This document shows, piece after piece, positions 35,752-43,307 of a stretch of DNA of 50,119 nt (positions within the stretch are counted from its first letter, which is position 1; each line of letters starts with the position of its first letter). Below the pieces are notes generated by a model, which made no database searches, had not been told where the DNA came from, and worked only from the letters and a program-made list of their open reading frames with translations. Origin of the DNA: a virus; the IMG/VR virus record IMGVR_UViG_3300020202_000015, positions 1-50,119 of that record, one strand, 5' to 3'. Position numbers and translations under genes: made by a program.

Positions 35752-36909
35752 TCAGTCGTCATTAGCCGACTTAAGCCACTGAATTCCTTGAAGTAGAAGA
35801 TCCTTGACATGGTAGGGGTCACAGGTTCGATCCCTGTCGCGCCCACCAACAACTTCAAGCACTTGCGTTTCACGTGGAACCGAGGCTGGAAAGTAATTGG
35901 AAAGCCAGCTCGGGTTGATTTCCCTCAGCAGACGCTCCACAGCCTCGGCAGCCGCACGCATGTACTCGGGCCTGTAGTGGGCGTAGCGCTCGGTCTCGCC
36001 GCCTATCGCGTGTCCCAACATGCCTTTGATGTCCCACTCGTGGACGCCTTCCTTTCGTAGCCAGATCGACACCGCTTTGCGAATGCCGTAGGCCGTACCT
36101 GCAACGCCTGCGCGCTTGGCGATTCGCATGAACGTCATCTTGTGGCCGCTGAGCTGCCGGCCGTTCCACTGGATCACAGGGCCAATTGAGCGGCGTTCGT
36201 TGAGATAGGCGAGGGCAGGCGCACACAGCGGGGCCTTTGCCCGGCGCTTCTTCGTGAGCTTGCGCCCTGGAACCGCGTAGTCGACGACGCCAGTCTCAGC
36301 GTTCACGCGATCCCAGGTCAGATCAAGTGTCGCACCCGGTCGCGGCCCCGTTGTGAGGGTGAGCAGGAAGAAACGACGCTCATGTTCATGTAGGCACGCC
36401 TCTGCGAGGCGCTTGAGCTCGTCGATCGTGAACGGACGAACGCCTTCGCCATCCTGTGCCTGAACCTTCAAAAGCGCCGGCACTGACGGGAGCTCGCCGC
36501 CGTCCACTGCCCATTGGATAGCGGCTCGAACGACACCCCAGTAGCGCCTGCGGGTGCTGTCCTTCGTCGCGAGCTTCAGAGCGAATTCCTTCTGCTTGCC
36601 GATCGGCCAGTCATAGACCCGAGTCGTCGGCTCGTGTTTGGCGACCAAGCCCATCACTCGACGCACCGTGTCGGCCGCGAACGTGTCCTTGGCGTAGTGC
36701 TCCCAGTAACGCAGCAGCACCCAAATGGCGGTCGCGTCATTGATCAGCTTCCGCTGCGGGAGCCGGAGGATGTGTTCCGCGAGCTTCTTTTCCGCGGCTG
36801 CGCGATCTCGAGTGCCAGTGCTACGTTTGCTGCACTGTCCGGCTGCGTCGTCGTATTCCCAGATGTACCAGATGCCATTTTCTTTTCGCTGCTTGAGGTA
36901 GCAGTGCAT
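35752..36909 (-). CDS. int: Integrase (tyrosine recombinase)
   Basis: A 385-residue phage integrase. N-terminal arm-binding domain (NGIWYIWEYDDAAGQCSKRS), core-binding helices (about 60-145), catalytic domain from 155: Arg190 (TTGPRPGATLDLTW), Y-x-x-R (Tyr274, Arg277) where most have H-x-x-R, MLGHAIGGE (His300) and the nucleophile region ERYAHYRPEY (Tyr309 or Tyr312). Residues 354-370 are encoded by the attP core, so the C-terminus changes when the phage integrates. It overlaps the excisionase gene by 166 bp. Drives integration into a tRNA-Val gene. Confidence 0.9.
   Translation of the reverse strand: MHCYLKQRKENGIWYIWEYDDAAGQCSKRSTGTRDRAAAEKKLAEHILRLPQRKLINDATAIWVLLRYWEHYAKDTFAADTVRRVMGLVAKHEPTTRVYDWPIGKQKEFALKLATKDSTRRRYWGVVRAAIQWAVDGGELPSVPALLKVQAQDGEGVRPFTIDELKRLAEACLHEHERRFFLLTLTTGPRPGATLDLTWDRVNAETGVVDYAVPGRKLTKKRRAKAPLCAPALAYLNERRSIGPVIQWNGRQLSGHKMTFMRIAKRAGVAGTAYGIRKAVSIWLRKEGVHEWDIKGMLGHAIGGETERYAHYRPEYMRAAAEAVERLLREINPSWLSNYFPASVPRETQVLEVVGGRDRDRTCDPYHVKDLLLQGIQWLKSANDD
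35802..35848 (+). other. attP: attP core: 3' part of tRNA-Val(GAC)
   Basis: The plus strand reads from the anticodon loop (TTGACAT, anticodon GAC) through a perfect T arm (ACAGG-TTCGATC-CCTGT) to CGCGCCC-A-CCA. The 5' half of the tRNA is missing and the upstream side of the anticodon stem does not pair, so identity to the host starts about at the anticodon. This is how phages that integrate into tRNA genes restore the 3' end. Confidence 0.88.
35884..35904. repeat. attP arm repeat, right copy
   Basis: Second copy (GGCTGG followed by AAAGTAATTGGAAAG), 20 of 21 bases identical to 35695-35715 and 189 bp away in the same orientation. It lies within the integrase coding sequence. Confidence 0.7.
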
Positions 36910-40381: not shown

Positions 40382-40534
40382 TCAACGACTCGCTTCGTAG
40401 CAGTTGTTCGCCCAGATCAGCAGGACGACGCCAACAGCCACCATCGTTCCCGCCGCACGGATGAGCAAGTACCCGCCGATACCGGCCAGGACGTAGCTCA
40501 CCACTCGCATTCCAGTCTCGACTTTGAATGTCAT
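40382..40534 (-). CDS. Two-span membrane microprotein, 50 aa
   Basis: ATG 40534 shares ATGA with the methyltransferase stop. Two hydrophobic stretches (VVSYVLAGIGGYLLI; TMVAVGVVLLIWANNC) divided by Arg, so probably two inner-membrane spans. No family recognised. Confidence 0.65.
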   Translation of the reverse strand: MTFKVETGMRVVSYVLAGIGGYLLIRAAGTMVAVGVVLLIWANNCYEASR

Positions 40535-41178
40535 GTGTCACCAGCCGTTGCGCTGTCCGAAGTCACTTTGATCGCGCGCGCGATGAGCTGCGCCGCGTAT
40601 GTGCAGACGGCGTTGCCGAGCTGCTTACGTCGGTCCACCCAGGAGGGAAGCCCATCATCCGCTCCCAGTCTTCTGGGTGCAGAATCCCAAGACTCTGCAA
40701 ACTCTTTCGCCACCTCCCGACCCGGCCCGCACCACCACCGCGACAGCTTCCGTAGCTGCTCGCTGTCGGCGTGGGCAACAACGAAGACACGTCGTCGGAG
40801 ATGCTTTGCGCCAACTTCAAAGGCGGACAGTTGAAGAGGCACGCTGGCATACCCAGCCACGAATAGGCGGCTCCGCAGCTCGGGCACCCATCGTTTCCAC
40901 GTGTGCGCGACGTTCTCGACAACCAGCCAATCAGGTCGAACAGCAGCGAGCTCCTCGAGCCGGAGAGGCCGGTCCTCTTGCCAGCTACCGACAAGTCCTG
41001 ACACGGGAAGCCCGCAGAGATCACGAGCGTCCCGGTACGCAGGTACTCGAGGCCTGTGCTTGCCGAGCACGGCTCTGCATCCGTCGTCGATCTCGACGTA
41101 TGCAACAGGCTCGAATCCTTCTCGCTCGAATCCAACTGAAAACCCTCCGATGCCGGCAAAGAACTCGATGAGCTTCAC
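40531..41178 (-). pseudogene. C5-cytosine DNA methyltransferase with motifs split between two frames
   Basis: The frame beginning at GTG 41178 (GTGA junction) carries motif I (IEFFAGIGGFSVGFEREGFE), ENV (40917-40909) with ELRSRLFVAGYASVPLQ, RRRVFVVA (40797-40774) and the terminal QLGNAV (40623-40606). The catalytic FPCQDLSVAGKR (Cys in PCQ, 41006-40998) and the later LLPTPTASSYGS (from 40775) and MMGFPPGWTD (to 40629) lie in the next frame over the same DNA. Distances between motifs are about 10-17 residues shorter than usual. As written, no single frame is catalytically complete. It may be decayed, mis-assembled or recoded. Confidence 0.65.
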
Positions 41179-41261
41179 TGCGCCAACGCCCAAGCCACGA
41201 TCGCCACAGCCCAGCTAACGGCCGCAATCCACCAGAAAATCACGGTGAGTCGTTTGATCAT
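41175..41261 (-). CDS. Single-span membrane microprotein, 28 aa
   Basis: ATG 41261 shares ATGA with the gene before and its TGA overlaps the methyltransferase GTG. IKRLTVIFWWIAAVSWAVAI continues into a single Trp/Ala/Val-rich span. Coupling at both ends argues that it is translated. Confidence 0.55.
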   Translation of the reverse strand: MIKRLTVIFWWIAAVSWAVAIVAWALAQ

Positions 41262-42485: not shown

Positions 42486-43307
42486 TCAGCGCAAAGGTTC
42501 TACTTCCCGCTCGTTGCGGTCGTAAACCCTGCGCGTCATAGCCATGGACGTGTGACCGAGGCGCTCGTACGCGGCTTCGATCGTTGCTGAATCCGAGGCA
42601 GACTTCGCTCGGATGTCGTGGAACGTAAAGCGCTCGTGACCTTTCGATATCCAGCTGCGCATGTAGCGTTGCCAGATGGCCCGGAAGCCTTCTGAGGTGT
42701 AGCCGAAGCCGTTGCGCTTTCGGATCACGTGCGGGCCGGGAGTCTCGAGTTCTCTGCAAGCGTCCAGCACCGCGGCAACGGCAGGGGTGATGCGCACGCC
42801 GAGGCGCTTCCCAGTCTTGGATTGGCGGAAGCGGATCCTTCCCGCTTCTCTGTCGACCTTCTCCCAGGTCAACCGCAGGATATCTCCCTGCCTTTGCCCA
42901 GTGAGCAGCGCCAGCTCCATCGCGAGCTGAAGTCGCATCGGTACGGTCGCCTTGAACGCTTGATACTCCTCGTCCGTGACGTAGCGCTCGCGCGGCTTCG
43001 ACGGATGCCTGTGAACGTCCCGGCAGGGGTTCTGCTCCATCATGTACCAGGGCGACACGGCAAGACTGAAGGCGCAAGAAAGGACCGCCATTTGGCGATT
43101 GCGCTGAATCTTTCCGCGGCCGACCACGGCCATGAAGTCCCGGAAGTCCCGAGGCTTCAGCTCGTTCGCGATGCGATTCCCGAACCACTTCCGCAGTGTG
43201 CGGACGTGATACGCATAGTCCTTCTGAGTGCGCTCCGCTAGCGTCGGAACGTACTCGGCCATGAACTTGTCGAGGATCTCGTTGACTGTGTGCGAATGCT
43301 GTTCCAT
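42486..43307 (-). CDS. Second tyrosine recombinase
   Basis: A 273-residue recombinase with all catalytic residues: Arg139 (LTGQRQGDILRLTW), Lys164/167 (SKTGK), His230-x-x-Arg233 (FTFHDIRAKSA), His252 (ERLGHTSMAM) and Tyr262 (RRVYDRNE). A SAM-like core-binding domain (MAEYVPTLAERTQKDYAYHV) precedes it. It is canonical where the attP-linked integrase is not, and belongs to a different subfamily. Possible roles: resolution of multimers, a second integration system or excision. A stop at the GTTAGACG upstream excludes a longer N-terminus. Confidence 0.9.
   Translation of the reverse strand: MEQHSHTVNEILDKFMAEYVPTLAERTQKDYAYHVRTLRKWFGNRIANELKPRDFRDFMAVVGRGKIQRNRQMAVLSCAFSLAVSPWYMMEQNPCRDVHRHPSKPRERYVTDEEYQAFKATVPMRLQLAMELALLTGQRQGDILRLTWEKVDREAGRIRFRQSKTGKRLGVRITPAVAAVLDACRELETPGPHVIRKRNGFGYTSEGFRAIWQRYMRSWISKGHERFTFHDIRAKSASDSATIEAAYERLGHTSMAMTRRVYDRNEREVEPLR

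Follow-up and report, generated by a model that had tools for sequence, protein, structure and literature searches.

The window, that is, the whole stretch of DNA analysed here, is a virus record from IMG/VR with a length of 50,119 bases; its genes include those for a phage terminase, portal, exonuclease and integrase. On its minus strand lies a methyltransferase locus in which two frames, A and B, are open over largely the same bases, B being at +1 relative to A (Table 1). The open stretch measures 227 codons in A and 203 in B, with an overlap of 609 nt, whereas the third frame has 6-7 stops. Motifs I, IV, VI, VIII, IX and X of the cytosine-5 (C5) methyltransferases are all present in the order of the DNA, yet they are spread over the two frames: I, VI, VIII and X are in A, which lacks the catalytic PCQ of motif IV and motif IX, and B holds motif IV, a four-cysteine block, PTPTASSYGSCRGGG and then motif IX, the PTPTASSYG stretch running from 40775 onwards in reading order. 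The initial annotation of this DNA had described five motif blocks in this order and in these frames, both open for about 200 codons, and the coordinates agree with it throughout. It had also proposed a profile search of each frame separately, which matched Pfam family PF00145 with A (2.2e-14) as well as with B (8e-8), parts of both being matched. Upstream of A, the stop codon of a short hydrophobic ORF overlaps the start of A, and the two may be translationally coupled.

Table 1. Features of the overlapping methyltransferase frames in the window
Feature	Position	Strand	Evidence
28-aa hydrophobic ORF, TGA overlapping the GTG start of A (GTGA)	41175..41261	-	sequence only
ORF A (alpha), 215 aa from GTG at 41178	40531..41178	-	motifs I, VI, VIII, X; conserved in nine contigs; fold model
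Motif I EFFAGIGGF, frame A	41140..41166	-	sequence
Frame-A stretch facing motif IV, CGLPVSGLVGSWQEDRPLRLEEL	40948..41016	-	weakest constraint in A; low-confidence part of A model
Motif VI VVENV, frame A	40909..40923	-	sequence
Motif VIII RRRVFVVA, frame A	40774..40797	-	sequence
Frame-A VIII-X linker, HADSEQLRKLSRWW...DDGLPSWVDRR, facing PTPTA and motif IX of B	40627..40773	-	constraint map
Motif X QLGNAV, frame A	40606..40623	-	sequence
ORF B (beta), +1 to A, open 203 codons	40563..41174	-	conserved in nine contigs; Pfam; profile match
Motif IV SAGFPCQDL with catalytic Cys (core GFPCQD), frame B	40992..41018	-	core invariant in nine contigs
Four-cysteine block CPxCG...C...C (C-x2-C-x11-C-x3-C), frame B	40827..40886	-	four Cys invariant in nine contigs
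PTPTASSYGSCRGGGAGR, frame B, probable target-recognition element	40722..40775	-	B identity 0.89-0.94 vs null 0.32-0.36
Motif IX MGFPPGWTD, frame B	40629..40655	-	sequence; profile match

Searches of IMG/VR with either frame revealed eight more contigs (L010-L014 and L098-L100) that divide the motifs in this way, A having I, VI, VIII and X, and B having IV and IX. In none of the nine does a single polypeptide hold the motifs of a canonical monomer, since A is without IV and IX, and B without I, VI, VIII and X. The contigs are not near copies of each other, because the pairwise identity of their A proteins is 49-79%. The offset between the frames is nevertheless always +1 and the open overlap ranges from 579 to 713 nt. 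The spacing of the motifs is also similar, with 151 nt between I and IV (124 in L012 and L014), 218 nt between IV and VIII (221 in L014) and 174 nt between VIII and X, and the motif coordinates of the window fit it. A distant blastn search of isolate phages with the locus gave no match, nor did tblastn searches of isolate phages and of plasmids with frame B; a scan of genome contigs returned mostly partial matches of the size of motif IV, among which no member of the window type was recognised. The apparent changes of frame could be errors of sequencing or assembly, an option raised by the initial annotation that would suit a metagenomic-type virus contig such as the window. But separate contigs agree in their frames, and nearly in their spacing, even though roughly one in three of their codon positions 1 and 3 differ. 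The explanation fails because nine contigs of divergent sequence share the arrangement, and we give it virtually no credence.

The methyltransferase of the window is flanked on both sides by tyrosine-integrase-like genes (35752-36909 and 42486-43307, minus strand), and two integrase-like matches lie downstream of the methyltransferase of L013. A scan of a few of the neighbouring genes in the window revealed no recognisable restriction gene.

Both frames are under purifying selection over identical bases. All nine contigs have a stop-free frame B, whereas synonymous shuffles of A predict 2.3-5.3 per gene, and the per-gene probability of a stop-free B under such shuffling lies between 0 of 5000 shuffles and 0.05. 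When the A protein was held, the mean pairwise identity of B was 0.569 against a null of 0.285 +/- 0.006, and when B was held that of A was 0.596 against 0.270 +/- 0.006; these shuffles ignore relatedness, and z-scores derived from them are not probabilities. We trust the contrast because of a control made of 50 pairs of ordinary genes of similar divergence. Changes at A codon positions 1, 2 and 3 stand at 2420:1580:2500 in the nine, which gives a position 1/3 ratio of 0.98 against a mean of 0.51 in the ordinary pairs, and the identity of the +1 frame exceeds its null by 0.290 (0.208 in the lowest pair) against 0.073 (sd 0.081). For the integrase common to the window and L013, the ratio is 0.58 and the excess 0.02. 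Ordinary genes were used instead of "one-frame" homologs of the methyltransferase because the latter are unfit as a negative control, most of them carrying motif IX in the +1 frame. A dual-coding gene had been among the readings put forward at the outset, to be given up if relatives conserved frame A only; we found the opposite, with 0.57 against 0.28 for B and 0.60 against 0.27 for A under reciprocal shuffles.

A sliding map locates the constraint along each frame. In B it sets in shortly before PCQ and ends shortly beyond motif IX, the first 40 codons or so having hardly any, and PTPTASSYGSCRGGGAGR is the best-conserved part. In A it runs along the whole length and is least facing PCQ; the linker between VIII and X has an identity of 0.59-0.71 against a null of 0.29-0.52. 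In A, the residues invariant across the nine include EN and GN, the RxR of motif VIII and the motif I glycines; in B, they include motif IV, the four cysteines, PTPTAS, YGSCRGGG and the core of motif IX. These patterns bear on the idea of a decaying pseudogene, in which small deletions broke an ordinary one-frame methyltransferase. The intervals on the two sides of motif IV are indeed 38 and 31 nt shorter than in the sister locus L258, but decay would not keep one layout in nine contigs at 49-79% identity, with intact motifs, no stops and selection on both frames. The initial annotation had already doubted simple decay, and we consider it extremely improbable.

The order of the motifs and their alternation between frames could also suggest a single polypeptide made by programmed ribosomal frameshifts in the order A-B-A-B-A. 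This would require four switches, and with an alternating product one of the two frames would be unconstrained at every position. Instead, both frames are conserved over common nucleotides, where the cysteine block of B faces the VI-VIII region of A and where PTPTA and motif IX of B face the linker of A. Recoding into one chain, another of the early proposals, is thus not sufficient to account for the locus, and we regard it as highly unlikely.

Structural and profile comparisons relate both products to C5-methyltransferases. The AlphaFold model of A has a core like that of these enzymes, which are also its best Foldseek matches (E about 1e-6), with TM-scores of only about 0.4; its pLDDT falls below 50 at residues 53-79, the part opposite motif IV. 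The profile of B matches residues 73-105 of M.HhaI (E 1e-7); it also has a weak match (E 0.016) to the motif IX region of DNMT3A. Modelled alone, B has a pLDDT of 35 and no confident model, as expected if it folds on its partner, but equally from a shallow alignment. Its four-cysteine block, which has resembling counterparts in L004 and L258, is possibly a zinc site. Candidate starts of B are TTG at 41135 and GTG at 41024. A conserved Shine-Dalgarno sequence with the TTG start was considered and dropped as not specific, since the GGAGG-TTG site occurs in only 5 of the 9 contigs and GGAGG with a start codon is also found there in 8 of 28 simpler relatives.

In C5-methyltransferases, motifs I and X bind S-adenosylmethionine (SAM), the cysteine of PCQ in motif IV attacks the cytosine, the ENV of motif VI assists, and motif IX supports the recognition domain. 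Judging from the sequences, the two overlapping phage genes probably encode both chains of a heterodimeric DNA (cytosine-5) methyltransferase. Alpha, from frame A, would be the SAM-binding core with motifs I, VI, VIII and X; beta, from frame B, would provide the catalytic loop with motif IV, the four-cysteine module, the probable target-recognition element and motif IX. The two would assemble non-covalently, and alpha would receive its motif IV segment and its DNA-recognition part from beta. As neither chain has a full active site, activity would need the association of both. Alternatively, both proteins may be made and conserved after the loss of methyltransferase function, for example as a DNA-binding regulator on the old fold. 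The lack of the catalytic cysteine in A and of motifs I and X in B would fit such a protein, and the enzymatic role we propose is itself a prediction. Yet the residues of PCQ, EN, RxR, GN and motif IX are invariant or almost so in the nine contigs, which would be unexpected without catalysis, making this alternative unlikely. For the heterodimeric enzyme, we infer that both chains are translated, assemble and methylate the phage DNA, the likely role being self-methylation against host restriction.

Two-chain C5-methyltransferases are already known. The small chain of M.EcoHK31I is read from an alternative frame inside the gene of the large chain, and M.EaeI is a C5-methyltransferase of two polypeptides like it. 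M.AquI and M.EcoHK31I are natural two-chain enzymes, the former with a single cut in the variable region that separates motifs I-VIII from IX-X, the latter with motif IX on the small chain, and I-VIII, X and the predicted target-recognition domain (TRD) on the large one (PMC3404938). Our locus resembles M.EcoHK31I in having a second chain in an overlapping frame inside the first gene, with both frames selected. Unlike it, the window puts motif IV with the catalytic cysteine, a TRD-like block and motif IX all on the nested chain. A small chain with only motif IX, as in M.EcoHK31I, is found in L258 and other phage relatives, but not in the window and its eight relatives, which have IV on B. The locus also differs from M.AquI, since its motifs alternate between the chains, with IV on B and X on A, and its genes overlap almost fully. 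Complementation between fragments is also seen with M.HhaI and M.SssI after artificial splitting (PMC3404938, PMC3439449), but these are engineered with one cut, whereas the arrangement in the window is natural, interleaved and overlapping. What appears to be new here is the presence of a catalytic motif and a TRD-like block on the nested chain. Among the papers searched, none describes the phage nested-frame cases.

A simpler layout, in which motif IX alone occupies the +1 frame, is the usual form in phages and is missing from annotations. A survey of 88 non-redundant classified loci, a sample that is partly biased because one seed peptide contained motif IX, places this motif in the +1 frame (b) 73 times, the nine included, and 7 times in frame a; frame c never has it. 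Eight of the eight annotated phages reached without that bias, via A or the DNA of L100, have motif IX at +1 relative to motif X. All 8 of these records list the alpha gene, and none has a coding sequence annotated for the nested frame. L258, the Mycobacterium phages Rhynn and Hades, the Lactobacillus phage Lc-Nu and Virus Rctr197k share the alpha signature of the window and have IX, usually with PTPTA, in the +1 frame, but differ from it in keeping motif IV in alpha.

These relatives suggest how the layout of the window arose. The nine contigs, L258 and L004 form one clade (support 98/96); L004, which has another layout, sits within it with the nine and L258, and the tree leaves the interior branching open, including the number of switches of motif IV. 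L258 has motif IV in A, and a similar cysteine block and PTPTASSYGSCRGGG in B, with spacings of 189 nt from I to IV, 249 nt from IV to VIII and 180 nt from VIII to X, against 151, 218 and 174 nt in the window. The net changes flanking motif IV, -38 and -31 nt, add up to -69, a multiple of three, so that they would shift the catalytic loop to the nested frame and keep the remainder in place. They are likely to represent single deletions in one ancestor. The most likely origin would thus be a layout like that of M.EcoHK31I, with only motif IX and the TRD on beta, followed by two compensating deletions that put the motif IV segment into a nested frame that was already open. The initial annotation had noted shortened spacing at each switch of frame and considered repeated small deletions. 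The shortening stands around motif IV only, VIII-X being nearly unchanged, and the two deletions there are shared and maintained, hence not decay. The later switches, to PTPTA and IX in B and back to X in A, are not explained by deletions, as this block is at +1 in nearly all phage relatives.

Other motifs may have moved in the same way. In L004 and L021 it is motif I that lies nested, the other frame holding IV, VI, VIII and X, but these layouts are suggestive only, since a single frameshift, natural or from sequencing, could mimic them; L183, with motif I in frame b, was left out because this frame has a stop and the locus may be a damaged gene of a metagenome-assembled genome. We lean slightly towards a wider proposition, in which phage C5-methyltransferases would be a broad group of frame-overlapping heterodimers and small compensating indels would move whole catalytic motifs between subunits with function kept, motif IV and the catalytic cysteine in the clade of the window, motif I in L004 and L021. 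If true, the chain topology of a catalytic domain evolves by frame exchange within one DNA stretch.

To our knowledge, same-strand overlapping genes with both products in one enzyme are rare. Here, the catalytic cysteine and the cofactor site would be on different chains read from common bases. This natural enzyme of the Rossmann type would allow tests of strand-and-loop complementation, as well as of active-site redistribution between subunits by frame exchange. The records inspected also point to a systematic gap in annotation: a phage methyltransferase that looks like an "orphan" may be cloned with half of the enzyme missing and then mistaken for inactive. M.EcoHK31I, being naturally split, has already served for targeted methylation (PMC3439449), and a pair with deeper interleaving could become another scaffold.

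Several phage and viral loci show other arrangements of the motifs. In Mycobacterium phage Llama (L266, 865-1624), alpha is annotated as two "DNA methyltransferase" genes and the motifs occupy all three frames, with I, IV and VI in one, VIII and X in the next and IX in the third. The split is probably not a sequencing error, because Ochi17, Seabastian and OfUltron likewise have two methylase annotations under the matching region. The viral contigs L027-L065 carry a large, seemingly one-frame family of C5-methyltransferases, in which LMGWPDGH/W (motif IX) lies at +1, a good distance upstream of motif X. L114 and L115 have motifs I-VIII in one frame, IX and X in another, and many stops elsewhere, a split like that of M.AquI or a frameshift. 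Two overlapping-frame methyltransferases lie in tandem in L100 (1640-3130), the upstream one with only motif IX nested, followed directly by one of the window type. Finally, the Lactobacillus phage Lc-Nu (L093, 1513-2998) has two adjoining "putative methylase" ORFs, the first with motif IX in its +1 frame.
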